From Kineococcus endophyticus (lineage in GTDB: Bacteria; Actinomycetota; Actinomycetes; Actinomycetales; Kineococcaceae): a stretch of DNA of 64,000 nt. The position numbers were made by a program, and so were the translations under genes. The notes beneath the pieces were generated by a model. That model was not told the DNA's origin. It searched no databases and saw only the letters and a program-made list of their open reading frames with translations. The stretch lies in contig NZ_JBFNQN010000007.1 of assembly GCF_040796495.1 (NCBI RefSeq), positions 124,001 to 188,000 of the forward strand, written 5' to 3'. How positions within the stretch are numbered: the stretch's first letter is position 1; each line of letters begins with the position of its first letter. Positions 45,479 through 63,409 of this stretch are shown here, in pieces.

Positions 45479-47369
45479 CCTGGCACCCTGTGGCGGTGCC
45501 CCGCGCCGTCCCCGACCCCGACCAGGCCGCCGACACGACCCCCGTCCCCGAGAAGGTCGTGGCCGTCGTCGTCGCCTACGACCGCCGGGACCTGCTCCTG
45601 GCCGGGCTCGACGCGCTGGCCGCCCAGACGCGCCGCCCCGACGTCGTCGTGGTCGTCGACAACGCCAGCGGTGACGGCTCGCCCGTCGCCGTCCGGGAGT
45701 GGGCTGCGGCCCACGACCTGACGCTGGACATGCCGGTCGACCTGGTCGAGCTGCCCCGCAACACCGGGGGCGCGGGCGGGTTCGCCGCGGGCCTGGCCCG
45801 CGCGGTCCACCGGCACGCCGCCGACGCCGTCTGGCTCATGGACGACGACACCGTGCCCCGCCCCAGCGCCCTGGCCGAGTCGCTCATCGCGTTGCGCCGC
45901 ACCGGGTCCGCCCTCGTCGCCAGCCGCGTCGTGTGGACCGACGGCCGCGACCACCCGATGAACACCCCCCGTGAACGTCCCGGGGTCGACGCCACGGAGG
46001 CGCGTGCCGCGTACGCCGCCGGCTGCGTGCCGGTGCGCTCGGCGAGCTTCGTGGCGCTGCTGCTCGACGCGCGGGCCGTGCGCGAGGACGGCCTGCCGCA
46101 GGCCGCGTTCTTCCTGTGGAACGACGACTTCGAGTACACGACGCGCCTGCTGCGCCACCGCCGCGGGGTCGCCTGCGCGGCCAGCGTCGTCGAGCACCGG
46201 ACGAAGGTCTTCGGCGGCGCCGACGCCGACCCGGGGGAGCGGTTCGTCCTGGAGGTCCGCAACAAGCTCTGGACGTTCACCCGGTCCCGCCCGCTCGGCG
46301 CGAAGGACACCGTCCTCTACGGCGGGGCGACGGCGCGCCGCTGGGTGCGCACGCTGGCCCGTTCGCAGCGGCGCGACGTCCTGCTGCGCGGGCTGGTCGA
46401 CGGGCTGCGGCAGGGCGCCCGCCGCCCCGCGACCACCGCGACCGTCCTGGCCGGGCTCGGGGAGGTGTCCGACGACGTCCGCGCCGTCGAGGCGGCGGCC
46501 GGCCGCGCGCCCCTCACCCCGGCCGACCCCACCAGCGAGCTGCCGCCGTTCTCCGTCCTGCTGCCCGTCTGGGCCCGCGACGACGTCGCGCAGCTGCGCC
46601 GGGCGCTCGACAGCGTCACCGTCGACCAGGAGCTGCGCCCCGACGAGGTCCTCCTCGTGCGCGACGGGCCCGTCCCGCCCGACCTGCAGCGCGCCCTCGA
46701 CGAGCTGTCGGCCCGCCCGGAGGTCCGCGTCCTGGAGCTGCCCGCGAACGTCGGACTGGCGCGCGCCCTGGAGGAGGGGCTGCAGCGCACCACCTTCGAC
46801 GTGGTGGCCCGGATGGACGCCGACGACGTCAGCCTGCCCGGCCGGTTCGCCGCCCAGCTGCCGCTCATCGCGGCCGGGGCCGACCTCGTCGGCGCGGGGC
46901 TGCTGGAGATCGGTGCCGACGAGGACGACGTCGTGGCCCGCCGCACCCCGCCGACGGGCGCCGCCGAGATCGCCCGGTACGCCCGCTTCCACGACCCGTT
47001 CAACCACCCGACGGTCGTCTACCGGCGGTCGGCCGTGGCCGCCGCGGGCGGGTACCGGGACCTGGACCTCATGGAGGACTACTGGCTCTTCGCGCGCATG
47101 ATCGCCGCGGGGGCCCGGGTCGAGAACCTGCCCGACCCGCTCGTGAAGTACCGCGTGGGTGCCTCCCCGGACGCCGGGTCCTACGCCCGCCGCGGGGGGC
47201 TGCGGCTCTTCCGCTCCGAGCTCACCCTCCAGCGGCACCTGCGCGCCGAGGGGTTCACCACCCCCGCGCAGGCCGTCCGCAACGTCGTCGTCCGCGGTGG
47301 CTACCGCTTCGTGCCCACGCGCGTGCGCACCGCCGCCTACCGCACCCTGATCGCGAGAGGGGGGAGCCG

Positions 47370-47373
<4 letters not shown>
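45475..47373 (+). CDS. Tandem two-domain glycosyltransferase family 2
   Basis: 632 aa with two GT-A domains. The first (about 20-320) is galactofuranosyltransferase-like: VVVAYDRRDLLLAGLDALAA, NTGGAGGFAAGLARAV, metal-binding LMDDDTVPRP, FFLWNDDFEYTTRL with the catalytic acidic residues. The second (about 355-630) is another GT2: FSVLLPVWARDDVAQL, NVGLARALEEGL, ARMDADDVSLPGRF, and DLMEDYWLFARMI. Likely adds two sugars in a surface glycan. GTG 45475 overlaps the upstream stop (GTGA); later GTGs (45490, 45496) are alternatives. Confidence 0.88.
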
Positions 47374-51873
<4,500 letters not shown>

Positions 51874-51875
51874 CC

Positions 51876-52760
51876 GTGGCCGTCGACACGACTGCACCGC
51901 TGGTAGCCCCGGGCCACGGCTCGGGGCTGCTGGACGTCGTCCCGTACCGGTACCTGCTCAAGCTCCTCGTCCGCAAGGAGATGCGGGTCCGGTACCGCGG
52001 GTCCGTCATGGGCCTGCTCTGGTCGTACGTGAAGCCCGGCGTCCAGTTCGCCGTCTTCTACTTCGCGATGGGGGAGTTCCTCCGGCTCAACGAGTCGGTG
52101 CCCAACTTCGCGGTGTACCTGTTCTCCGGCATCGTCGTGATCAACTTCTACACCGAGGCGTTCGGCAACGCGACGCGCTCGGTGGTGGGCAACGCGCCCC
52201 TCATCAAGAAGATCTTCCTGCCGCGCGAGCTGTTCTCGGTCTCCTCGGCGTGGGTGGCCTCCATCCACTTCCTGCCCCAGCTGATCGTGCTGCTCATCGC
52301 GTGCGTCGCGACGGGGTGGCGGCCGGGGCCGGTGCAGATCCTCGCCGGCCTGCTCGGGTTCGTCGTCGTCGCGGTCCTCGCGGTAGGTCTCGGTCTGCTC
52401 TTCGGGGCGGTCAACGTGCTGTACCGCGACTTCGAGAACATCGTCGACCTGCTGCTCATGGTCGTGACGTGGACCTCGCCCGTCCTCTACGACTGGCAGA
52501 AGGTCGCCGCCGCCGTCGGCGGGCCCGACTCCTGGTTCATGACCCTCTACCAGCTGAACCCCGTGACCGCGGCCGTCGAGCTGTTCCACTGGGCGTTCTG
52601 GTACCCCACGGGCGGGGTGCGCGAGGCGGCCGTCCCGCCGCCGCTGCCGCCGCACCTGCTGTGGTCCGGGCTCTGGGGGCTCCTCATCGCCCTCGTGTTC
52701 CTCGCGGTGGGGCAGGTCGTGTTCCGCCGCATCGAAGGCCGTTTCGCGCAGGAGCTGTGA
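51876..52760 (+). CDS. wzm: ABC-2 polysaccharide export permease (Wzm-like)
   Basis: 294 aa with about six helices. KLLVRKEMRVRYRGSVMGLL-WSYVKP (about 30-55) is the signature of O-antigen/teichoic-acid exporters; LIKKIFLPRELFSVSSAWVA and LGLLFGAVNVLYRDFENIV are further conserved parts. Matches the permease thought to export lipid-linked galactan in mycobacteria (Rv3783). Begins 2 nt after the galactofuranosyltransferase stop and is directly followed by its ATPase. Confidence 0.92.
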   Translation: MAVDTTAPLVAPGHGSGLLDVVPYRYLLKLLVRKEMRVRYRGSVMGLLWSYVKPGVQFAVFYFAMGEFLRLNESVPNFAVYLFSGIVVINFYTEAFGNATRSVVGNAPLIKKIFLPRELFSVSSAWVASIHFLPQLIVLLIACVATGWRPGPVQILAGLLGFVVVAVLAVGLGLLFGAVNVLYRDFENIVDLLLMVVTWTSPVLYDWQKVAAAVGGPDSWFMTLYQLNPVTAAVELFHWAFWYPTGGVREAAVPPPLPPHLLWSGLWGLLIALVFLAVGQVVFRRIEGRFAQEL

Positions 52761-53554
52761 TGAGCGTGACTGACTCGAACCCTGCGTCGAACTCCGGACC
52801 CGGCTCCTCCGACTCCCGCACGTCGGGCGTCCCCACGGCCATCGAGGTGCGGGGCCTCGTCAAGGACTTCACCCTGCGCCACAACCGCTCCCTCAAGGAG
52901 CTGGCGATGGCGAAGATCCGTAAGCGCCCCATCTCGGACTCCTTCCGCGCGCTGCACGGCATCGACCTGACCGTCCACCAGGGCGAGTCGCTCGCGCTGC
53001 TCGGGTTCAACGGCTCCGGCAAGTCGACGCTGCTCAAGCTGATCTCCGGCGTCATGCGCCCGGACGAGGGCACCATCGGCGTCCGCGGCCGCATCGCCGG
53101 GCTCATCGAGGTCGGCGCCGGATTCCACCCCGACCTCACGGGCCGGGAGAACGTCTTCCTCAACGGCGCCATCCTCGGGATGGACGAGGCGACGATCACC
53201 GCCCGCTTCGACGACATCGTCGCGTTCAGCGAGATCGAGCGCTTCATCGACACCGAGGTGAAGTTCTACTCCTCCGGGATGTTCCTGCGGCTGGCCTTCG
53301 CCGTCGCGGTGCACACCGACCCCGAGGTGTTCCTCATCGACGAGATCCTGTCGGTGGGCGACGAGCCGTTCCAGAAGAAGTGCCTGGCCCGCATCGAGGA
53401 GCTGCGCGCCGAGGGCCGCACCCTCGTCATCGTCAGCCACGACCTCGACATGGTCGCGGGCCTCTGCACCCGAGGGATCCTGCTCGAGCAGGGCCGCGTC
53501 GTGGCCGACGACACCGCCGAGCGCGTCGTGGCCCGGATGCGGGGGCAGGGGTGA
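52760..53554 (+). CDS. wzt: ABC polysaccharide export ATP-binding protein (Wzt-like)
   Basis: 264 aa. VRGLVKDFTLRHNRSLKELA is the usual start of the Wzt/TagH/RfbE type, Walker A LLGFNGSGKSTLLKLISG (about 87-104), GAGFHPDLTGRENVFLNG, signature YSSGMFLRLAFAVAV, Walker B VFLIDEILSVGD. There is no C-terminal carbohydrate-binding domain, so export is not tied to a capped chain end, as in the mycobacterial homologue Rv3781. ATG overlaps the permease stop (TGATG); GGAG lies 5 nt before it. Confidence 0.93.
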   Translation: MSVTDSNPASNSGPGSSDSRTSGVPTAIEVRGLVKDFTLRHNRSLKELAMAKIRKRPISDSFRALHGIDLTVHQGESLALLGFNGSGKSTLLKLISGVMRPDEGTIGVRGRIAGLIEVGAGFHPDLTGRENVFLNGAILGMDEATITARFDDIVAFSEIERFIDTEVKFYSSGMFLRLAFAVAVHTDPEVFLIDEILSVGDEPFQKKCLARIEELRAEGRTLVIVSHDLDMVAGLCTRGILLEQGRVVADDTAERVVARMRGQG

Positions 53555-55104
53555 GCAGCGGTGTGACGGACGCGGTCCGGACGGCACCGCCGGGTCGGCC
53601 CGTCTCCCGCGTCGGTGCGCTCGTCCCCGCCTTGGGGGTCGGCGTGCTCGCGGCGGCGACGTTCGTCCTGCTGCGCACCGCACTCGTCGACGACGCGTAC
53701 ATCACCCTCGCCTACGCGCGGAACCTCGCGCTGCACGGCACGTGGGGCCTGCTGTCGGACGTGCAGTCCAACACCGCGACGTCCCCGCTGTGGGTGCTGC
53801 TGCTCGGGGCGGTGACGTTCGTCGTGCGCCGGCCCGTCGTGGCGCTCGGGCTCCTGCACGTGCTCGTCGCGGTCGGGCTGACGCTGTCGCTGACCTCGGC
53901 CGCGCGCCGGACCCGGCTGCCCGCGTGGGTGGGTCCCGTCGCGGCCGTCGCGGTCGGGGTGAACCCGCTGCTGCTCAGCTCGGTCGGGCTGGAGTCGGCG
54001 TTCCTGGTCCTGCTGCTGTCGCTGCTGCTGCTGACCGCGGTGCAGGGCCGGGCGCTGCCGTTCGGGCTCGTCGCCGGGGCGGTGTTCCTCACGCGCATGG
54101 ACGCCGGCGTCGTCATCGCCGTCGTCACGCTGCTGACGCCCGCGGTCCTGCGCCGCGTGTGGGTCGCGGTGCCCGCGGCCCTCGTCGTCGTGCTGCCGTG
54201 GATGGCGTGGAGCTGGTTCGTCCTCGGCTCGGCCGTCCCGGACACCGTGGTCATCAAGACGCTGCAGAAGTCGTGGGAGCAGTACGACGTCACCAACGGC
54301 GCGCAGATGTACGTCGAGGTCTACGGGCTCACGGCCGTGCTGGCGTTCCTGCCCGTCGTCCTCGGCGGGCTCGGCTGGTGCGTCCTCGCCGCGTTCGCCT
54401 GGACGGGCCGCCGCGTCGAGGGGGACGGGCCCCGGTTGTGGCCGTGGCTCGTCACCGGGATCGCCGGCGTCGCCCACTACGCCGCGCTGTCGGTCCTCGG
54501 AGTCCCCCCGTACCACTGGTACTACGCGGTGCTCGTCGCCCTGTCGACGTTCACAGCCGTCGCCGCCCTCGGCGTGCTGTTCCGGACCGTCGAGGTCCGG
54601 CCCGTCGGTCTCGGAGCCGGGCTCGCGGCCGTCGTCGTGCTCGTGGCCAGCGTCGGCGTCGACCTGCGCGCGGGCACCCCGTGGCGCATCGCGCCGATCC
54701 AGACGAACTGGGCCGAACCCTCGCAGTACACGCAGGTCGCCCTCGGCGTGCAGCAGGTGCTGCGCGAGCGCGGCGGTCCGCAGCACGTCACGTCGCCGGG
54801 CGAGGTCGGTCACCTCGCCTACGTCTGCGACTGCGTCGTGGACTACTTCGGGGACCCGGCCCGCGTGCAGCCGATGATCGACCAGGTCGAGGCCGAGGCG
54901 TCCCCGCTCGGCAAGCGGCTCCTGGAGTGGAACTTCAGCCACCGGGACACGGCCGCCGAACCCGTGCCCGTCGCGGGGGACCTGTTCCGGTTCGACCGCG
55001 GCACCGAACCCCCCGCGGCGCGCGGCCTGCCCACGTGGCCGGTCACGACGACGTGGGACATGCCCCTGTCCGACATCGTCCTGCTCCCGGCGGGTGGTCT
55101 GTGA
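53551..55104 (+). CDS. GT-C membrane glycosyltransferase, AftB-like
   Basis: 517 aa with about ten helices followed by a soluble outer domain (from about residue 370). The first outer loop has LVDDAYITLAYARNLALHGT (about 45-64), with an Asp-Asp pair as in GT-C arabinofuranosyltransferases of the AftB (Rv3805c) type, followed by NTATSPLWVLLL. The outer domain has GEVGHLAYVCDCVVDYFGDP, similar to AftB C-termini by memory. Likely adds arabinofuranose from a decaprenyl donor. It sits next to PAP2 and UbiA genes as aftB does in mycobacteria. GTGA overlap on each side. Confidence 0.78.
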   Translation: MSSGVTDAVRTAPPGRPVSRVGALVPALGVGVLAAATFVLLRTALVDDAYITLAYARNLALHGTWGLLSDVQSNTATSPLWVLLLGAVTFVVRRPVVALGLLHVLVAVGLTLSLTSAARRTRLPAWVGPVAAVAVGVNPLLLSSVGLESAFLVLLLSLLLLTAVQGRALPFGLVAGAVFLTRMDAGVVIAVVTLLTPAVLRRVWVAVPAALVVVLPWMAWSWFVLGSAVPDTVVIKTLQKSWEQYDVTNGAQMYVEVYGLTAVLAFLPVVLGGLGWCVLAAFAWTGRRVEGDGPRLWPWLVTGIAGVAHYAALSVLGVPPYHWYYAVLVALSTFTAVAALGVLFRTVEVRPVGLGAGLAAVVVLVASVGVDLRAGTPWRIAPIQTNWAEPSQYTQVALGVQQVLRERGGPQHVTSPGEVGHLAYVCDCVVDYFGDPARVQPMIDQVEAEASPLGKRLLEWNFSHRDTAAEPVPVAGDLFRFDRGTEPPAARGLPTWPVTTTWDMPLSDIVLLPAGGL

Positions 55105-55634
55105 ACACGTGGTCCGACAACGGTCGGCAGAAGGTGGCGGAGCTGGACCTCGCGGTCCTGCGCGCCGTCCAGGAGAAGGTCGCCTTCCCGGGCGTCGTGC
55201 CCGTCGCGACGGGCCTGTCCCACGCGGGCGAGCACGCCGCGGCGTGGATCGGGATCGGCGCGGTGGGGTTCCTCGTGGACCGCCGCCGGCGCCGGGAGTG
55301 GGCCGTCGCCACGACCGCGGTCGTCGCCGCGCACGGCGCCTCCGTCGTGCTCAAGCGCGTCGCGCGCCGGCACCGCCCGCTGGACCACCTCGTCCAGGTG
55401 CGCGTGGGGACGCCGAGCCGCTGGAGCATGCCGAGCTCGCACGCGACGTCGACGACGGCCGCTGCGGTCGCGTTCGCCCCGCTGCTGCCCGTCCCGACGT
55501 GGCCGCTGGTCCCGGCGATGATGGCCTCCCGCCTCGTCCTCGGCGTGCACTACCCGAGCGACGTCACCGCGGGTGCCCTGGTGGGGGCCGCGACGGTGCG
55601 CGTCGTCCGGTCGCTCGCGGAGCGGTCCGGGTGA
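55101..55634 (+). CDS. PAP2 family membrane phosphatase (decaprenylphosphoryl-5-phosphoribose phosphatase-like)
   Basis: 177 aa. The three phosphatase motifs are KRVARRHRP (K-x6-R-P), SMPSSHATST (P-S-G/S-H) and SRLVLGVHYPSD (S-R-x5-H-x3-D). Small size, and placement between an AftB-like gene and the UbiA gene, correspond to Rv3807c, proposed to remove the 5-phosphate from decaprenylphosphoryl-5-phosphoribose. Three or four helices. Overlaps both neighbours by 4 nt. Confidence 0.85.
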   Translation: MNTWSDNGRQKVAELDLAVLRAVQEKVAFPGVVPVATGLSHAGEHAAAWIGIGAVGFLVDRRRRREWAVATTAVVAAHGASVVLKRVARRHRPLDHLVQVRVGTPSRWSMPSSHATSTTAAAVAFAPLLPVPTWPLVPAMMASRLVLGVHYPSDVTAGALVGAATVRVVRSLAERSG

Positions 55635-56521
55635 GCGTGACCGAGACCTCCGCGTCCGTGCTGCCCGCCTGGTTGCGGGCCATGCGCCCGCGGCAGTGGG
55701 TCAAGAACGTCCTCGTCCTCGCGCCGGTGTTCCCGGCCGGTTCGCAGGTCGGGCTCGACACGCTCACCGGCGTCGGCGTGGCCTTCGTGCTGTTCTGCCT
55801 CGTCTCCAGCGCCGTCTACCTCATCAACGACGCCAAGGACGTCGAGGCCGACCGGGCCCACCCGCGCAAGCGGTTCCGGCCGATCGCCGCCGGCGAGCTG
55901 AACGCCCGCACGGCCGTCGTCCTGGCCGTCGCGCTGGCGGTCGTCGCCCTCGTCGGCGGAGCGGTGTGGCAGCCCATGCTGGGCGTCGTCCTCGCCGTCT
56001 ACTTCGCGATTCAGCTCGCGTACTGCTTCGGCGTCAAGCACGAACCCGTGCTGGAACTGGCCTGCGTCGCCTCGGGGTTCCTGCTGCGGATGCTCGCCGG
56101 CGGCACCGCCGGGGACATCCCGCTGTCGGGGTGGTTCCTGCTGACGACGGCGTTCGGGTCGCTGTTCATGGCGGCCGGCAAGCGGTACGGCGAGGCCCGC
56201 CGCGGCGAACTCACGGGGGAACCCGTGCGCCGCGTCGTGCAGAAGTACACGACGACGTACCTGCGGTTCGTCTGGACGCTCGCGGCGACCGTCGTCGTCA
56301 CGACGTACGCGCTGTGGGCCGTCGAGGTCCTCGTGCCGCAGTCGGGGACCCAGCTCGCGACGTTGTCCGTCGTGCCGTTCATCCTCGCCGTGATGCGGTA
56401 CGCCGTGGACGTCGACAAGGGGAACGCCGAGGAACCCGAGGAGATCGCCCTGCACGACAAGGTCCTCCTCGTGCTGGCCCTGGCCTGGTGCGGCTCGCTG
56501 CTGCTGGCGGTGTGGCTGTGA
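55631..56521 (+). CDS. ubiA: Decaprenyl-phosphate phosphoribosyltransferase (UbiA family)
   Basis: 296 aa prenyltransferase-fold protein with about nine helices. MRPRQWVKNVLVLAPVFPAG, then the Asp-rich motif NDAKDVEADRAHPRKRFRPI (N-D-x2-D-x3-D-R-x-H-P-x-K-x2-R-P-I) and a second motif YGEARRGEL. These match Rv3806c, which transfers 5-phosphoribose from PRPP to decaprenyl phosphate, the first step to the arabinose donor DPA. The epimerase genes dprE1/dprE2 are not in the window. GTGA overlaps on both sides. Confidence 0.92.
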   Translation: MSVTETSASVLPAWLRAMRPRQWVKNVLVLAPVFPAGSQVGLDTLTGVGVAFVLFCLVSSAVYLINDAKDVEADRAHPRKRFRPIAAGELNARTAVVLAVALAVVALVGGAVWQPMLGVVLAVYFAIQLAYCFGVKHEPVLELACVASGFLLRMLAGGTAGDIPLSGWFLLTTAFGSLFMAAGKRYGEARRGELTGEPVRRVVQKYTTTYLRFVWTLAATVVVTTYALWAVEVLVPQSGTQLATLSVVPFILAVMRYAVDVDKGNAEEPEEIALHDKVLLVLALAWCGSLLLAVWL

Positions 56522-56952
56522 TCCGGGCCGTGACGCAGCACCACCGCTTCGGCGAGGTCGTGCGGTTCCTCGTCTCCGGGGGGATCGCGTACCTCGCCGA
56601 CCTCCTCGTCTTCAACGTGCTGCTGTTCTCCGGCGTCGGGTCGGCGCTGTCGAAGGTCGTCTCGAGCGTCATCGCGATCTTCATCGCGTTCCTCGGGTCG
56701 CGGTACTACACCTGGCGCGACCGGCGCAGCGCGCACCCGGGCCGGGAGTACGCGCTGTTCTTCCTGTTCTCCGCGATCGCGGCGGGGTTGCAGCTGCTGT
56801 GCCTGGTCATCACCCACTACGGGTTCGGCTGGACGTCGCCGCTGGCGGACAACGTCTCCGGCAACGTCGTCGGCATGGCGATCGCCATGGTGTTCCGGTT
56901 CCTGACGTTCCGGACGTTCGTCTTCCCGGACCGGTCCGCCTCGCGTGCCTGA
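56518..56952 (+). CDS. GtrA family membrane protein
   Basis: 144 aa with four helices: VVRFLVSGGIAYLADLLVFN, IAIFIAFLGSRYYTWRDRRS, LFFLFSAIAAGLQLLCLVI, and VGMAIAMVFRFLTFRTFVF. In mycobacteria a GtrA protein of the arabinogalactan cluster (Rv3789) acts with the arabinose-donor or transferase machinery. Second gtrA paralogue in this window (other at 22822-23409). GTG overlaps the ubiA stop; its stop overlaps the next gene by 8 nt. Confidence 0.9.
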   Translation: MIRAVTQHHRFGEVVRFLVSGGIAYLADLLVFNVLLFSGVGSALSKVVSSVIAIFIAFLGSRYYTWRDRRSAHPGREYALFFLFSAIAAGLQLLCLVITHYGFGWTSPLADNVSGNVVGMAIAMVFRFLTFRTFVFPDRSASRA

Positions 56953-58069
56953 CCGCCGGACCTGGCTGCCCGCCGCGGCGGGCGTCGTGCTCGCGGTGGC
57001 CCTGGTCCTGTCGGGGCTGGGGCAGGAGGCGTGGCAGCGCGGCTACGACCTGGCGGTCTACCGGGACGGCGCGCGCGACCTGCTCGCCGGTCGGGACCTG
57101 TACCTGCGCGAGACGTACCGCGGGCACTGGTTCGTCTACCCGCCGTTCGCGGCCGTGCTGTTCCTGCCGCTGCTCGCGCTGCCCGCGACCGCCGACCTCG
57201 TCGTGTGGGACGCCGTACTGCTCGCCGTCACCGTGTGGGCGTGCGTCAAGGTGTTCCGCTCGGTCTCGGCGGGCTGGTCCGTCGGCCTCGGCACGGCGTT
57301 CGTCCTGCTGAGCGACCCGTTCCGCGAGTCCCTCGTCCTGGGGCAGGTGAGCCCCCTCGTCGTCGTCGGGCTCGTCGTCGGCTGCCTCTACGGCGGGCGC
57401 GGGGGAGCGGTGCTCGCCGGGTTGTCGGGGGCCGTGAAGGTGACGCCCGCGCTCGTCGTCGCGGCGTTCGTCAACCGGCGCGCGCGCTGGTGGTTCGCCT
57501 CCGCGGTCGCCGTCGTGGGCCTGGTCGCCACCGTCGTGGGGGTGCTCGTCGCGCCGGAGTCGGCGGCGTCCTACTTCGGCTCGCTCGTCTGGGACTCCTC
57601 GCGCGTGGCGGCGCCCGGGACCACGACGAACAACTCCCTCGCGGGGGCGTTCGCCCACGCCGGGGTGTCGTCCTCGCTGAGCTCGACCCTCGGCCTCGTC
57701 CTGGCCGTCCCGCTGCTGGTGCTCGTCGTCGTCGTGGCGCTGCGCGCGGACTGGCTGGAACGCACCGACCGGCTGCGCTTCGGCCTGCTCGTCTCCCTCG
57801 TGACGTGCCTGGTCTCGCCCGTGACGTGGTCGCACCACGCCCTCGCCGCCCCGATCGCGGCCGTCGCACTCCTCGCGTGGGGGCGGTTCCGGTGGCTGGT
57901 GGTCCTCGCGGGGATCCCGTGGCTGCTGCCCGTCCTGCACTGGGGCACGCTCGCCGCCGAGACGCGGCCGGTCTCGCTCCTCGTCCTCGTCGCCCTCCTC
58001 GCCCTCACGCCGCGCGGCGGCCCCGCTCGTGGGCGCGCCGCGGGGGATGGGCTCGTCGCCCGGCGCTAG
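56945..58069 (+). CDS. GT87-type membrane glycosyltransferase
   Basis: 374 aa with about ten helices. DLAVYRDGARDLLAGRDLY (about 35-53) contains the acidic outer-loop motif of GT87/DUF2029 enzymes (PimE, AftC), then HWFVYPPFAAVLFLPL, SDPFRESLVLGQVSPLVV and VTWSHHALAAP. Probably a polyprenyl-phosphate-sugar transferase acting outside the membrane, possibly an AftC-like branching arabinosyltransferase given the cluster, but this is inference. Last gene of the run, followed by a repeat-containing spacer. Confidence 0.86.
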   Translation: MPDRRTWLPAAAGVVLAVALVLSGLGQEAWQRGYDLAVYRDGARDLLAGRDLYLRETYRGHWFVYPPFAAVLFLPLLALPATADLVVWDAVLLAVTVWACVKVFRSVSAGWSVGLGTAFVLLSDPFRESLVLGQVSPLVVVGLVVGCLYGGRGGAVLAGLSGAVKVTPALVVAAFVNRRARWWFASAVAVVGLVATVVGVLVAPESAASYFGSLVWDSSRVAAPGTTTNNSLAGAFAHAGVSSSLSSTLGLVLAVPLLVLVVVVALRADWLERTDRLRFGLLVSLVTCLVSPVTWSHHALAAPIAAVALLAWGRFRWLVVLAGIPWLLPVLHWGTLAAETRPVSLLVLVALLALTPRGGPARGRAAGDGLVARR

Positions 58070-58136: not shown

Positions 58137-60152
58137 TCAGACGCGGGCGACCTTGCCGGTGGTGGAGCTGAAGCTCAGCGTCCCGCCCTGGAACGTCTGG
58201 GTGAGCGTGGTGCCGTTCCACACCTCGTCGCCGGTGGGCATCCCGAGGGAGCCGTTCTCCCAGCCCTGCGCGGCCCACGCGTCGTAGACGGCGCCGCGGA
58301 CGGCGTGCACGCCGGACGTCGGGCCCCAGTAGATCGACCCGCCCTGGAAGCGGGTGAAGAACCCGCGGCCGTTCGGGAGGGCGGCGTCGCTCGTCACGGG
58401 GAACCCGAGACCGCCGTTCTCCCAGCCGAGGGAACCCCACTCCTGCAGGATGGCGCCGCGGACGGCGTGCGCGCCCGCGAACGGCGTCCAGTAGATCGAC
58501 CCGCCCTGGAACTGCGTGTACCAGCCGATCCCGTTCGGGGTGGGGGCGTCGGAGGTGGACGGGAAGCCCATCCCGTTCTCCCAGCCCAGCCGGGCCCACT
58601 CGGAGCGGATCGCGCCGCGGACGGCGTGCGCGCCGGTCGCGGGCGAGAAGTACACCGACCCGCCCTGGAAGTGGTTGTAGAACCCGACGCCGTTCGGGGT
58701 GCGGCTGTCACCGGTGGTGGGGAATCCGAGGCCGTTCTCCCAGCCCAGGCGCGCCCACTCCGAGCGGATGGCGCCGCGGACGTCCCACGCGCCGGCGGCC
58801 GAGGCGTAGATCGAACCGCCCGCGAAGTGCTGGTAGGACCCCTGGCCGTTGGGCGTCGCGAGCTCGGCGCTCGTGGCCCCGCCCAGCGGACCGGAGGCCC
58901 CGCCGAGGGCGCCGTAGCGCTGCTGGACGGCGCTGACGATGGAGAACCAGTCCGAGCGCAGCCCGGCGAGCTGGCGGATGCGGGTGCCGGTCAGCGTCGC
59001 GGTCCCGTTCGTGCACAGCAGCTTGGCCGACGTCACGCGGCCGCCGTAGTCGCCGCGGCCGTCGCGGCCGGTGATGACGAGCCCGGTCGCCGACCCGGCG
59101 TTGCCGCAGGCGCTGTCGAAGGCGGTCGCCGGGACGGTGGCCGACCAGTCGGCGACGCTGGACCCGGCGGCCGCGCCCGGGCCCGAGAACGGGTCGGCGC
59201 GGGCGGTCAGGTACGGCTTGGACCCTGTGACCGTCCAGCCGCCGTTGGAGGAGGAGAACTGCGTGAAGGCGACCTGCCCGCCGTAGGAGCGGATCTCCCC
59301 GGCCGTGGCGGCGATGGCGGAGTCCGTGGAGGCGGGGGTCGTCCAGGTGGTCGCGCCGTTCCGGTCGCGCAGCTCCGAGCCCCGGTAGACCTGGCACGCG
59401 GTGGTGTCGCAGATGTCGGTCTGGGCCTGCGGGTTCAGGACGGACATGGCGTAGCTGCGGGCGGCGACGGCCTGCGCCTTGAGGGCCTCGGGGTGGAACG
59501 AGGACGGGGACTCCGCGGGCACGACGCCGCGCAGGTACGTCTCGAGCGGGACGTCGTTGACGACGGTGAGGGTCGAGCCCGTGACGATGCGGATCGTCCC
59601 GTCGTACCGGACGAAGGTGCCGTCGCCCTTCTGCAGCAGGACGCCGTCGGGGCCGCTGATCGTGACCGTTCCGCCCCAGGTCTCCTTCCAGCCACCGTTC
59701 GCGGCGTTGCCGGAACCGACCGTCGCGGACAGGCCGTTCCCCGAGGGCGCGACGACGAGCCGCTGCCCGGCACCGATCTTCTGACCGCTGGAGGACAGCG
59801 TGAGCTGGGCGGAGGTCGGCGCGGTGACGGCGACGGCCGCGTTGGCGAAGGACGTGAGGCCGACGCGCAGCGTGCGGTTCGCCTGGTTCCCGACGGACGT
59901 GCCGGGGTAGTAGAAGTCGAGGATCGTCCGGTAGGACTGCCCGGACAGGGCCCGCGACTGCGCGCCCCACTGCGACATCCCGATGCCGTGGCCGTACCCG
60001 TGCCCGACGACGGCGAACGCGCCCCCGACGGCGGGGCGGACCTCGTCGGCCTGCGCGGGCAGCGTCGTGAGGGTCGCGAGGGTTCCCGTGGCGGTGAGCG
60101 CGACGGCCGTCGCGGCCAGGGCCCGGGTCAGGCGACGGGTTCGGGTGCGCAC
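58137..60152 (-). CDS. Secreted SpoIID-domain protein with five LGFP repeats
   Basis: 671 aa. Signal peptide (ALAATAVALTATGTLATLTT, cleavage near PAQA). Residues about 45-400 hold a SpoIID/LytB-type domain: GHGYGHGIGMSQWGAQ, YRTILDFYYPGT, VVNDVPLETYLRGVVPAESP with the family's Glu, and EALKAQAVAARSYAMS. Residues about 409-671 are five LGFP units of about 53 residues (each with W-x-x-x-G-W-E-N-G-x-G-F-P and F-Q-G-G-S-I-Y). SpoIID is a peptidoglycan lytic transglycosylase in sporulating bacteria; LGFP is a wall-anchoring module. GTG 60152 has GGAGGAA. Confidence 0.9.
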   Translation of the reverse strand: MRTRTRRLTRALAATAVALTATGTLATLTTLPAQADEVRPAVGGAFAVVGHGYGHGIGMSQWGAQSRALSGQSYRTILDFYYPGTSVGNQANRTLRVGLTSFANAAVAVTAPTSAQLTLSSSGQKIGAGQRLVVAPSGNGLSATVGSGNAANGGWKETWGGTVTISGPDGVLLQKGDGTFVRYDGTIRIVTGSTLTVVNDVPLETYLRGVVPAESPSSFHPEALKAQAVAARSYAMSVLNPQAQTDICDTTACQVYRGSELRDRNGATTWTTPASTDSAIAATAGEIRSYGGQVAFTQFSSSNGGWTVTGSKPYLTARADPFSGPGAAAGSSVADWSATVPATAFDSACGNAGSATGLVITGRDGRGDYGGRVTSAKLLCTNGTATLTGTRIRQLAGLRSDWFSIVSAVQQRYGALGGASGPLGGATSAELATPNGQGSYQHFAGGSIYASAAGAWDVRGAIRSEWARLGWENGLGFPTTGDSRTPNGVGFYNHFQGGSVYFSPATGAHAVRGAIRSEWARLGWENGMGFPSTSDAPTPNGIGWYTQFQGGSIYWTPFAGAHAVRGAILQEWGSLGWENGGLGFPVTSDAALPNGRGFFTRFQGGSIYWGPTSGVHAVRGAVYDAWAAQGWENGSLGMPTGDEVWNGTTLTQTFQGGTLSFSSTTGKVARV

Positions 60153-60168
60153 GGGTTCCTCCAGGGTT

Positions 60169-61398
60169 TCAGTTGCCGGTGTAGCTGGTCGAGGTGGTGC
60201 GCCGGGCGGCGTCCCAGGTGATGGAGCCGCCCTGGAAGTCGACCCGCAGGCCGCCGGGGACGGGGTACTCGTCGCGCGTGGGGAACCCGAGACGGCCGTT
60301 CTCCCAGCCCTGCCGGGCCCACGCGTCGCGCAGCGCGCCGCGGACGGCGTGCGCCCCGGTGGCGGGGGACCAGTAGACGGACCCGCCCTCGAAGTGGGTG
60401 TAGTACCCCGGCTTCGTCGGCGTCCGGGCGTCACCGGAGACGGGGAACCCCAGGCCGTTCTCCCAGCCGAGCTGGGCCCAGCGGTCGCGGATCGCGCCGC
60501 GCACCTCGAAGGACCCCGTCGCGGGGGAGGAGTAGATCGAACCGGACTGGAAGTGGTTGTACGCGCCGGTGCGACGGGGGGTGCGGAGTTCGTCGGTCAG
60601 CGGGACCCCGAGGGTTCCGACCCCGCCGATCCGGTCGAACCGGGCACGGATCCCGCCGTGCACCTCGCGGACCGGCGTGGTGGGGGAGGAGTAGACGGTG
60701 CCGTAGTGGTAGTCCTTGCGGGCGACGCCCCCGGCCGCCGTGGTGCGGCGGCCACCGACGTCGCCGCCGAGCACGGACCGTTCGGCACCGAGGGCGATCC
60801 AGTGCCCGCGCAGCGGGTCCGTCGTCCCCGTCCACCACGACGTCTCGCGCGCCGCGCCGGAGAACGTCAGGGAGAGGTGGATGTGGTTCGTGTGCGGGTC
60901 GGGCCCGGTGTACGGCTGCCACCCCGCGGCGGCGTTGTAGGTCTTCCAGACCTGCTTGTTCCAGATGACGTACATGACGCCGAGGCGCCGCGCGTTGGCG
61001 GCGACGTTCCCGGCGGAGTCGGTGGCCAGCAACCAGGTGAGGAACTCCCCGGCGAGCGCGGCCTGCGTGGGGTTCGTCGCCTCCAGCATCCAGTCGACGG
61101 CCCGGCCGTCGGAGTGCTCGGAGACCGGGACGCCGCTGGCCGGGCACTCGCGGGCCGTGCCGATCGTCTGCTTGCCGTAGGCGTCGCGGATCAGCTGGGC
61201 GAGCGCCAGGGTTCCGGGTTGCGGCGGCTGGCAGCTGATCGGAGCCTGGTAGCGCGGGAAGGCGTCGACGTCCGCGGGGAGCCCGCCGGGAACCCGGGGG
61301 GCCGCCTGCGCCGGGAGGCCGGTGGCCAGGACCGCCCCGGCGACGAGCAGGGACAACCCCGCGCGCAGGGCGGTCCGGGCCGGACGTCGACGCTCCAC
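60169..61398 (-). CDS. Secreted M15-like peptidase with LGFP repeats
   Basis: 409 aa. Signal peptide (LRAGLSLLVAGAVLATGLPAQA minus ends). Residues about 35-195 form a D-Ala-D-Ala carboxypeptidase-like domain: PVSEHSDGRAVDWML gives the H-x6-D zinc ligands, VMYVIWNKQVW is conserved, and PHTNHIHLSLTF gives the last His pair. Residues about 252-409 are three LGFP units; a degenerate fourth may precede them. Probably cleaves peptide stems or cross-links while held on the wall. GTG 61398, 16 nt upstream of the SpoIID gene's start region, same strand. Confidence 0.87.
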   Translation of the reverse strand: MERRRPARTALRAGLSLLVAGAVLATGLPAQAAPRVPGGLPADVDAFPRYQAPISCQPPQPGTLALAQLIRDAYGKQTIGTARECPASGVPVSEHSDGRAVDWMLEATNPTQAALAGEFLTWLLATDSAGNVAANARRLGVMYVIWNKQVWKTYNAAAGWQPYTGPDPHTNHIHLSLTFSGAARETSWWTGTTDPLRGHWIALGAERSVLGGDVGGRRTTAAGGVARKDYHYGTVYSSPTTPVREVHGGIRARFDRIGGVGTLGVPLTDELRTPRRTGAYNHFQSGSIYSSPATGSFEVRGAIRDRWAQLGWENGLGFPVSGDARTPTKPGYYTHFEGGSVYWSPATGAHAVRGALRDAWARQGWENGRLGFPTRDEYPVPGGLRVDFQGGSITWDAARRTTSTSYTGN

Positions 61399-61399
61399 G

Positions 61400-63409
61400 T
61401 CACTTCTTCTTCACGGTGATCTTGCCCGAGGACCGCGTCCATGTGAGGGTTCCGCCCTCGAACTCCATGCGGGTCCCGCCGTCGACCGAGACCTCGTCCT
61501 TGGTCGGGAACCCCAGGAAGGAGTTCTCCCAGCCCAGGGAGGCCCAGGTGTCGCGGAAGGCGCCGGTGATCGCGTGCGCACCGGTCGAGGGCGACCAGTA
61601 CACCGACCCCTTCTGGAAGTGGTTGTAGTACCCCTTGCCGTTCGGGGTGGGGGTGTCGTCGACGGTCGGGAAACCCAGACCGTACTCCCAGCCGAGCGCG
61701 GCCCAGCGGTCGCGGATCGCGCCGGTCGTCCAGTGCGCCCCGGTGGCGGCGGAGTAGTAGATCGAGCCGCCCTGGAAGTGGGTGAAGAACCCGCCCTTGG
61801 CCGCGCCGTCGCCCGTGACGGGGAAACCGGCGGGGCCCCCCTCCCAGCCCATGGACGCCCACTTCTGCCGGATGGCGCCGCGGACCTCGTGGGCGCCGGT
61901 GGCCGGCGACCAGTAGATCGAGCCGCCCTGGAAGTGGTTGTAGAACCCGCCCTTGGCCGGGGAGTCGTCCGTCGTGGGGAACCCCAGGCCGTTCTCCCAG
62001 CCGAGCCGTCCCCACAGCGCCAGGATCGCGCCGCGGACGGTGTGGGCGCCGGTGGCCTTCGACCAGTAGATCGCACCGCCGGAGTAGAACCGGTAGGACC
62101 CGGCGCCGTTCGGGGTGTCGTTCTCGTCGGTCGTGGGACCGCCGAGGTTCCCGGCACCACCGATGGCGGCGTACTTCGCGGCGATGGCGGTGGTCGTCGC
62201 CCCGCCGAGGAGCTGGCCCACGCGGTCGCGGATCGCGTCCATCTTCGTGAACCCGACGTTGCCGGGGCAGGCCGTGTAGCCGACGTCGCGGTGGGCGTTG
62301 ATCGTGCGCAGCTTGACGGTCGTGCCGGGGGAGTACTTCGCGGTGCCGCCGCCGGCCGACGTCAGGTACGCGGCGCCGTCGGCGGGCAGGCCGTACATCG
62401 ACAGCTTCCACGCGATGACCTGCGCCACGGACTCCAGGCACGCGGCGCTGGGGGCGATCGAGGTGAAGTCGCCCATCATCGAGACACCGAAGGTGTCGGT
62501 GTTGAACCCGCCGGCGTGGGCGCCGACGACCGGCAGCGTGATGCCGCCCGCGCGGCCTTCCCAGATGCCGCCGAAGCGGTCGACGACGAAGTTGTAGCCG
62601 AGGTCGGACCAGCCGAGGGAGACCGTGTGGTAGCGGTACATGCTGCGGATCACGGACGGCACGTCGGCCTGGTTGTAGGTCCCGCCGTCGGCGGTGTGGT
62701 GCACGACGACGGCCTTGATGGTGTCGCTGTAGCCGACCCCGCCGCGGCGCAGGGACTCGTCGGCACCCCACTGGGCGCGGGTCCTGATGGCCGGCTGCGG
62801 CAGCACCTTGGGGGAGGCCTTGGTGGCCTGCAGCTGGGCGTCGCGGTCGCTCGAGGCGGGGCTGGACAGCGTCGTGCGGGCCAGGGCGGAGGCCTCGCCG
62901 GCGTCGACGACCTGCAGGTGCGCGTCGGCCACGTCGGCCTGCGGGAGGCGGACCTGGACCGTCGCGCCGGTGCCGAGCGCGCCGACCCACATCGGGTCCG
63001 AGGCGGTGACCGAGCGGCGTCCCTCGGCGGTGTCGGGGTCGGGCTCGGAGTCGTTGAGGGGCAGGTCGCTCCACCCGGTCCAGCCGCCGCCGGCGAGGCG
63101 GACGCGGACGGAGATCGTGTCGGTGGAGGCGCCCGAGGGGAAGGTGACGCCGACCATGTGCCCGCCGTCGACGGGAACGCTCACGACGGCCAGGCCGGGG
63201 CCGGCCTCCGCCTGCGCGGACGACAGCAGGGAGGCCGAGCGCTGGGCGCCGAGCGAGAACGCCCGGGTCGAGCCGGTGACCTGCAGGGCCGCGGGGCTGA
63301 GGGCGCTGGCCGAGTCGCTCCCGGCCGCCAGGCAGGCGCCGACGACGCCGGTGCCGACGGCACCCGTCAGCAGGGTGCGGCGGGACAGGGGGGTCTGGAC
63401 GGACCGCAT
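61400..63409 (-). CDS. Tat-exported N-acetylmuramoyl-L-alanine amidase with five LGFP repeats
   Basis: 669 aa. Tat signal SRRTLLTGAVGTGVVGACLA. Residues about 60-190 are a beta-rich region (GMVGV-like strands), then an Amidase_2/PGRP domain (about 225-400): zinc ligands His in VVVHHTADGG, His in INAHRDVGYTACPGNVGF and Cys in the same segment; GYNFVVDRFGGIWEGRAGG and GVSMMGDF are conserved. Residues about 411-669 are five LGFP units. Hydrolyses the bond between MurNAc and L-Ala. ATG 63409 has GAGAGGA; a good promoter lies 155 nt upstream. Stop abuts the M15 gene start (1 nt). Confidence 0.92.
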   Translation of the reverse strand: MRSVQTPLSRRTLLTGAVGTGVVGACLAAGSDSASALSPAALQVTGSTRAFSLGAQRSASLLSSAQAEAGPGLAVVSVPVDGGHMVGVTFPSGASTDTISVRVRLAGGGWTGWSDLPLNDSEPDPDTAEGRRSVTASDPMWVGALGTGATVQVRLPQADVADAHLQVVDAGEASALARTTLSSPASSDRDAQLQATKASPKVLPQPAIRTRAQWGADESLRRGGVGYSDTIKAVVVHHTADGGTYNQADVPSVIRSMYRYHTVSLGWSDLGYNFVVDRFGGIWEGRAGGITLPVVGAHAGGFNTDTFGVSMMGDFTSIAPSAACLESVAQVIAWKLSMYGLPADGAAYLTSAGGGTAKYSPGTTVKLRTINAHRDVGYTACPGNVGFTKMDAIRDRVGQLLGGATTTAIAAKYAAIGGAGNLGGPTTDENDTPNGAGSYRFYSGGAIYWSKATGAHTVRGAILALWGRLGWENGLGFPTTDDSPAKGGFYNHFQGGSIYWSPATGAHEVRGAIRQKWASMGWEGGPAGFPVTGDGAAKGGFFTHFQGGSIYYSAATGAHWTTGAIRDRWAALGWEYGLGFPTVDDTPTPNGKGYYNHFQKGSVYWSPSTGAHAITGAFRDTWASLGWENSFLGFPTKDEVSVDGGTRMEFEGGTLTWTRSSGKITVKKK

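Follow-up and report, generated by a model that had tools for sequence, protein, structure and literature searches.

Putative wall-opening genes of Kineococcus endophyticus and the lineage-dependent tails that they carry

LGFP repeats are found on envelope enzymes of mycobacteria and corynebacteria and on phage lysins. Ami3, or Rv3811, is described as a cell wall amidase (PMC12735335), Csp as an LGFP protein and LGFP domains as interacting with the peptidoglycan layer (PMC12113857), the LGFP part of MytA is reported to pull down with peptidoglycan-arabinogalactan, the two polymers not being separated (PMC11299179), and LGFP has been reported earlier in endolysins (PMC3314691, PMC9671378). In the literature examined, the LGFP ligand has not yet been split into peptidoglycan and arabinogalactan. 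The system is partly known already, through LGFP as a wall anchor and an amidase beside the galactan cluster of mycolate genera; we take that amidase to be Ami3/Csp. Here we analyze a window of 64,000 nucleotides from Kineococcus endophyticus (contig NZ_JBFNQN010000007.1, positions 124,001 to 188,000), in which three neighbouring minus-strand genes, for a PGRP-type amidase, an M15-like protein and a SpoIID/LytB-type protein (the trio), carry LGFP tails. What is new is a wall-opening gene set whose tails (LGFP, CWB2 or FG-GAP-like) co-vary by lineage, at least on the amidase and SpoIID. Neither the trio nor the neighbourhood of amidase and galactan genes was found described in openly licensed literature. 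The trio genes and their repeat arrays (window positions) are:

61400-63409, minus strand, PGRP-type N-acetylmuramoyl-L-alanine amidase, 669 residues (PF01510 at residues 229-384, E-value 2e-17)
61400-62158, minus strand, LGFP array of the amidase, 5 units (Pfam and a local model)
60169-61398, minus strand, M15-like protein (unclassified, putative zinc peptidase), 409 residues (motifs)
60169-60798, minus strand, LGFP array of the M15-like protein, 4 units (Pfam and a local model)
58137-60152, minus strand, SpoIID/LytB-type protein (putative lytic transglycosylase), 671 residues (PF08486, TIGR02669)
58137-58919, minus strand, LGFP array of the SpoIID protein, 5 units (Pfam and a local model)

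The first-pass annotation had recognised three neighbouring minus-strand genes with a common LGFP tail, and this was confirmed by Pfam (PF08310, PF08486, PF01510). PF08310 was found far above chance in all three proteins, with E-values of 5e-84 (SpoIID), 1e-59 (M15-like) and 4e-94 (amidase) and scores of 277, 198.9 and 309.2 bits against a cut-off of 22. The predicted counts of 5, 3 and 5 units were correct for the outer two proteins, but the middle one has four by both Pfam and the local model. The three tails are ∼55% identical to one another. The SpoIID assignment follows from PF08486 (E-value 1e-27) and TIGR02669 (1e-53), and that of the amidase from PF01510 (64.3 bits against a cut-off of 26). 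H237/H238, H373 and C381 of the amidase, the H, H and C of PGRP enzymes, are invariant in 10 aligned sequences, and are presumably zinc ligands, as in T7 lysozyme. The amidase also has an RR-containing signal region, and a Protein Data Bank (PDB) search with it matched PGRP structures and MytA.

The amidase and M15-like genes are separated by 1 nucleotide, and the M15-like and SpoIID genes by 16. The M15-like gene starts at a GTG 1 nucleotide past the amidase stop, and the SpoIID gene at a GTG with GGAGG upstream. The trio had been taken for one unit with a single promoter. The tight spacing agrees with this, but a consensus scan found no promoter, so that one transcript is supported by spacing alone.

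The middle protein had been called M15-type. Its motifs, S[ED]H-x2-GRA-[LV]DW and HxxH[IV]H in 11 close homologues, agree with this, and S61, H63, G66, A68, D70, H140 and H142 do not vary among 11 sequences that share 58-90% identity with it; we take SxHxxGxAxD plus HxH, both present here, to be the zinc signature of peptidase M15. No M15 or other non-LGFP model of Pfam or NCBIfam matched the domain. In a PDB profile search its last third weakly resembled a 'LysM domain-containing protein' of 129 residues (E-value 2e-4), and the domain weakly matched one PHROG family of no assigned function (1e-5) and one of tape-measure proteins (1e-3). Predicted structures were poor, the mean predicted local distance difference test score being 31 from a single sequence and 40 from a two-sequence alignment. 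From sequence motifs, 'M15-like' is a plausible label. Of the 246 class genomes sampled, incomplete ones included, 143 contain a related domain (E-value at most 0.001, partial matches counted). At none of the 19 listed loci outside the source genome does this domain carry LGFP; in G009 it does.

The same enzymes recur with other tails. Among 59 genomes for which both genes were taken from the matches listed, 8 have an M15-like domain within 8 kilobases (kb) of the amidase; in six of those eight, from families f35 and f27 and without any LGFP match in the genome, the amidase gene stands in a single run with those for SpoIID and the M15-like protein. In the f27 genome G042 (locus L225) each of the three proteins has three CWB2 units by Pfam. 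In a second f27 genome (G020) the local model finds CWB2 on the amidase and SpoIID, the M15-like gene being cut by the contig end.

Tails were compared in 41 labelled genomes, hand-picked from the matches listed, one to several per family. Amidase and SpoIID each had to have their own gene and a tail of 80 residues or more, and a match was an E-value of at most 1e-5; the comparison excluded shorter tails, seven fused amidase-SpoIID open reading frames, congeners of the source genome, the named loci and the majority of f10 and f33 genomes. Amidase and SpoIID have matching tails in 12 of 15 genomes (5 of 8 families) vs. 4 of 182 cross-family pairs. The 12 genomes belong to f35 (five), f31 (three), f27 (two), f1 (one) and f3 (one); the tails do not match in G021, G048 and G107. 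The two enzymes are also fused, in the seven open reading frames L242, L244-L247, L275 and L277 (families f34 and f39), and both domains occur in one frame in L107, L110 and L141. At locus L208 (G030), the M15-like tail appears by eye to be SLH-like and the amidase and SpoIID tails FG-GAP-like.

Several observations weigh against a lineage-specific tail common to all three enzymes. Matching is weaker when the M15-like protein is involved: 7 of 28 genomes for amidase and M15-like tails (30 of 688 across families), and 5 of 13 for SpoIID and M15-like tails (0 of 130). A third f27 genome (G060) has no CWB2 by the local model. G048 combines an LGFP amidase with PG_binding_1 on the M15-like protein and a SpoIID protein without recognised module, and in G211 an LGFP amidase accompanies an M15-like tail that is PG_binding_1-like. 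Three genomes (G246, G247, G256) have another LGFP gene close to the amidase that gave no match to the local SpoIID model. Gene conversion could, moreover, be the source of matching tails in adjacent genes. In one rival reading the tail is a mere spacer or display stalk without specific ligand, spread between neighbours by such conversion, as would suit the identity among the trio tails and the presence of LGFP on unrelated catalytic domains (CAP, reprolysin-like, GSDH). We judge this very unlikely: MytA LGFP pulls down with wall polymer (PMC11299179), and the tail is replaced by CWB2, a named cell-wall-binding module.

With moderate confidence, we read the trio as a secreted peptidoglycan-opening operon that denudes and then cleaves, held by a lineage-specific wall tether. 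Domains, tails, synteny and the joint variation of tails are observed, whereas catalysis, order of action and ligand are what we infer here. The amidase would strip stem peptides off the glycan strands, the SpoIID enzyme would then cut the denuded strands, and the M15-like enzyme may trim peptides, with multivalent LGFP tails holding all three in the wall. The Bacillus amidase SpoIIP first takes off the stem peptides, after which SpoIID cleaves the bare glycan. Because PGRP amidase and SpoIID are recurrently paired and fused, this analogy suggests the same order of work, amidase before SpoIID. A wall-binding role of LGFP is supported by LGFP phage lysins and by MytA. LGFP would be one of several exchangeable tethers, alongside CWB2, FG-GAP-like and unnamed tails elsewhere, and would probably be fitted to the peptidoglycan-polymer complex of the lineage, not to galactan or arabinan alone.

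The trio adjoins an arabinogalactan-like gene cluster, with the following members:

48680-49867, plus strand, glf, UDP-galactopyranose mutase (TIGR00031 above cut-off, PF03275)
49873-51873, plus strand, glfT2-type galactofuranosyltransferase (PF19320, PF17994)
51876-52760 and 52847-53554, plus strand, Wzm/Wzt-like ABC exporter pair (PF01061, PF00005; galactan export models below cut-off)
53563-55104, plus strand, candidate glycosyltransferase (by position only)
55101-55634, plus strand, PAP2 phosphatase (PF01569)
55631-56521, plus strand, UbiA-type decaprenyl-phosphate phosphoribosyltransferase (NF008978, 419.6 bits against a cut-off of 207)
56518-56952, plus strand, GtrA (PF04138)
56945-58069, plus strand, GT87 glycosyltransferase (PF09594)

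The predicted adjacency holds, and the trio is outside the polymer cluster itself. The two are convergent, the GT87 gene ending at 58069 and the trio at 58137 with 67 nucleotides between, and they are therefore not one transcription unit. Glf, GlfT2 and DPPR synthase are all present, as in a mycobacterial-type arabinogalactan cluster. The Emb arabinosyltransferase of such clusters (PF04602) had no match in the source genome; among the 246 class genomes it occurs in 19, all of one family (f10). The arabinosyltransferases of the Kineococcus cluster may be of a non-Emb kind, with the 53563-55104 product as a candidate; that product had no family match at 0.001 and a single weak match at 0.014. 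The gene at 45490-47373, directly before an acyltransferase gene and glf, encodes two GT2 domains in one protein, of which the first is weakly GlfT1-like.

Eleven genomes of the genus were compared, the source genome among them, and in 8 of these trio genes adjoin cluster genes, with a contig end cutting the amidase in G255 and the far cluster end in G252. G246 has the amidase and M15-like genes and no cluster gene within the 20 kb examined; the contigs of G247 and G253 are too short to judge. In Kineococcus xinjiangensis, placed in another genus of the family in the collection, no cluster gene was found within the 20 kb examined, and glf lies ∼30 kb away on the same contig. A wall-opening kit with one common tether beside polymer genes, as first proposed, is thus supported.

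This placement had also been taken to suggest that LGFP recognises arabinan or galactan, which would aim the trio at polymer-decorated peptidoglycan. Besides the synteny in the genus, this draws on the MytA pull-downs with peptidoglycan-arabinogalactan (PMC11299179) and on arabinogalactan in the wall of the Kineococcus type species (as given in a title cited in PMC7601052). LGFP is present in all 19 Emb-bearing genomes and in 23 of the 27 genomes with both glf and ubiA, 19 of the 23 being of the Emb family. Across the class the idea finds only partial support.

A trio-type amidase (E-value at most 1e-20; 47 copies) is carried by 38 of the 51 genomes with GlfT2, and lies within 12 kb of GlfT2 in 29 of the 38, where random placement predicts 0.26. 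Such neighbours were found in 15 of 17 genomes of f10, 12 of 13 of f33 and the single genomes of f4 and f1, and in none of f31 (0 of 4), f8 (0 of 1) or f23 (0 of 1); in the two f10 misses amidase and GlfT2 are on different contigs. Two features of the method count against this enrichment: the 12-kb limit was set with knowledge of the distance at the source locus, 10.4 kb, and most of the amidases used to build the profile were cluster-side ones. In itself the amidase is common, being present in 149 of 246 class genomes. Twelve of the 29 cluster-side amidases, all of f33, are in genomes without any LGFP match and carry FG-GAP instead, three by Pfam and all 12 by a local model derived from these three sequences. 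It is thus the amidase that is the conserved neighbour of the polymerase, and a location beside the galactan cluster is tied to the amidase gene and not to LGFP.

Named amidase loci were also surveyed, as the best 80 of at least 563 relatives. Glf or GlfT2 is in the examined flank of 39 of them, all from mycolate genera (Mycobacterium, Mycolicibacterium, Mycobacteriaceae metagenome-assembled genomes named Mycobacterium, Rhodococcus, Nocardia, Aldersonia, Dietzia and Corynebacterium). The local model finds LGFP on 37 of these 39 amidases. By gene numbering, we take the loci of mycolate genera beside Glf or GlfT2 to be Ami3/Csp. Four named Nocardioides loci showed no GlfT2 or Glf in the examined flank.

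Among the 246 class genomes LGFP was found in 81, GlfT2 in 51, glf in 65 and the UbiA-type synthase in 78 above its curated cut-off; the last figure was used because the 139 genomes at an E-value of at most 0.001 included many weak partial matches. LGFP and GlfT2 occur together in 28 genomes (odds ratio 3.3, p 4e-4, a value that for related genomes is no true probability, as with the others below), of which 19 are the Emb-bearing family f10. Without f10 the counts are 9, 53, 23 and 142, and the odds ratio is 1.05; it is 1.06 for LGFP and glf and 0.88 for LGFP and ubiA. For glf and ubiA together it is 2.8 (p 0.22, on 8 genomes), which is neither for nor against. That LGFP follows the galactan cluster across genomes was therefore rejected as a general rule, the association resting on one family of 19 genomes.

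Conversely, 38 of the 81 LGFP genomes have no glf, no GlfT2 and no above-cut-off UbiA-type synthase. Family f24 has 19 LGFP genomes, 18 without any of the three markers. Its identification with Pseudonocardiaceae, which have arabinose-galactose walls, was dropped: four named Pseudonocardiaceae have glf, and the 65 glf genomes include none of f24. Of 11 named genomes searched, eight have glf; no glf was found in the other three, Brevibacterium gallinarum, Brevibacterium sp. CCUG 69071 and Modestobacter sp. VKM Ac-2984, all of which have an LGFP amidase. LGFP also occurs in Methanosarcina acetivorans. The proposed check, co-occurrence of LGFP with the cluster across genomes, thus found LGFP common without glf or ubiA, which at the level of co-occurrence is the outcome named beforehand as refuting arabinan or galactan recognition.

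These data say that (i) the LGFP tail is exchangeable; and (ii) it is not bound to galactan genes, because 38 of 81 LGFP genomes are marker-free and odds ratios are ∼1 outside f10. With the Brevibacterium and Modestobacter amidases, the Methanosarcina LGFP and the 12 cluster-adjacent amidases in LGFP-free genomes, they make recognition of arabinan or galactan by LGFP unlikely. It is quite possible, if short of an even chance, that LGFP binds peptidoglycan itself or some feature of meso-diaminopimelate walls and that its link to arabinogalactan is phylogenetic. LGFP is spread over genomes without galactan genes, the same enzymes bear other tails, and an interaction of LGFP with the peptidoglycan layer has been stated (PMC12113857). 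Two observations speak against peptidoglycan as the ligand, the phage distribution described below and the LGFP of Methanosarcina. The latter genus has no murein.

The trio LGFP array matches 327 phage records, all of phages with hosts in mycolate genera (Gordonia 292, Rhodococcus 23, Nocardia 5, Tsukamurella 4 and Mycobacterium 3), a count without host-by-host denominator. With a second LGFP query, the tail of another family, 76 of 76 phage records were of phages of the same genera. Among the 40 records listed for the trio array, 39 bear a lysin or endolysin annotation and one is without annotation. The amidase domain, used as a control, matched 230 phage records, 32 of them of Streptomyces phages, so that other actinophages are present in the collection; a PG_binding_1 tail matched just 15. 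In other phages, LGFP that has diverged further could escape a tblastn search. The mycolate-host restriction points to a ligand in the mycolate/arabinogalactan wall, more specific than 'wall', and counts for the polymer-directed reading and against both the peptidoglycan-directed one and a general wall tether. LGFP lysins may instead have been captured from mycolate hosts.

Our preferred reading remains that of a peptidoglycan-opening set with a lineage-specific tether. A bolder extension, which we regard as doubtful, is that an actinobacterial kit of amidase, SpoIID and M15-like protein has its tails replaced together when the wall polymer changes, so that tail type would report the polymer, LGFP serving furanose-type polymers and CWB2 or FG-GAP-like tails others.

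The source genome has 35 LGFP matches in eight proteins: the trio, a second pair and three more. The pair, a diverged amidase and M15-like protein with three LGFP units each, lies ∼5 kb beyond the trio (C7:192438-195085), and its stop and start codons overlap. The others are a reprolysin-like metallopeptidase with a tail of four units (L033:3210-5276), a CAP-domain protein with five (L034:3694-5166), and a protein that combines six units with an RR signal region and a Cys-rich region (L032:3649-5400), and whose neighbour looks thioredoxin-like by eye. No family matched the Cys-rich region above cut-off. A by-eye likeness of this protein to methylamine dehydrogenase light chain was set aside, as no family or PDB match was found.

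Kineococcus is LGFP-rich, is reported to have wall arabinogalactan and is not known to have mycolate; it would be a clean system to separate the two candidate ligands. An amidase-SpoIID pair with matched tails offers a general, testable rule for the aiming of wall hydrolases.

Among known systems, we take the trio amidase to resemble Ami3/Rv3811/Csp, likewise a PGRP amidase beside glf or glfT2, and its amidase domain is 41-46% identical to three f10 (Emb-family) members of the alignment. In contrast to the three-gene run of Kineococcus, Mycobacterium amidase loci have no SpoIID or M15-like match in the examined flank. The Kineococcus amidase has five LGFP units vs. one or two at Ami3/Csp-type loci, in a genome without Emb match. 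In Rhodococcus, five loci (L122, L137, L161, L166 and L170) have an LGFP amidase and an LGFP SpoIID beside glf or glfT2, and L140 has both without glf in the examined flank; the Rhodococcus pair differs in lying on opposite strands, without M15-like match and with one or two LGFP units. The LGFP stalk of MytA/PS1 of Corynebacterium glutamicum (PDB 6SX4, 6SWZ) matched with E-values of 3e-34 to 3e-37, although that protein is a mycoloyltransferase and no peptidoglycan hydrolase. Bacillus SpoIIP-SpoIID likewise joins an amidase and SpoIID acting on the same strands, but with another amidase family, in an engulfment membrane complex and without LGFP. The CWB2-tailed proteins (PF04122) of G042 are the same three enzymes with another module, and presumably another polymer.

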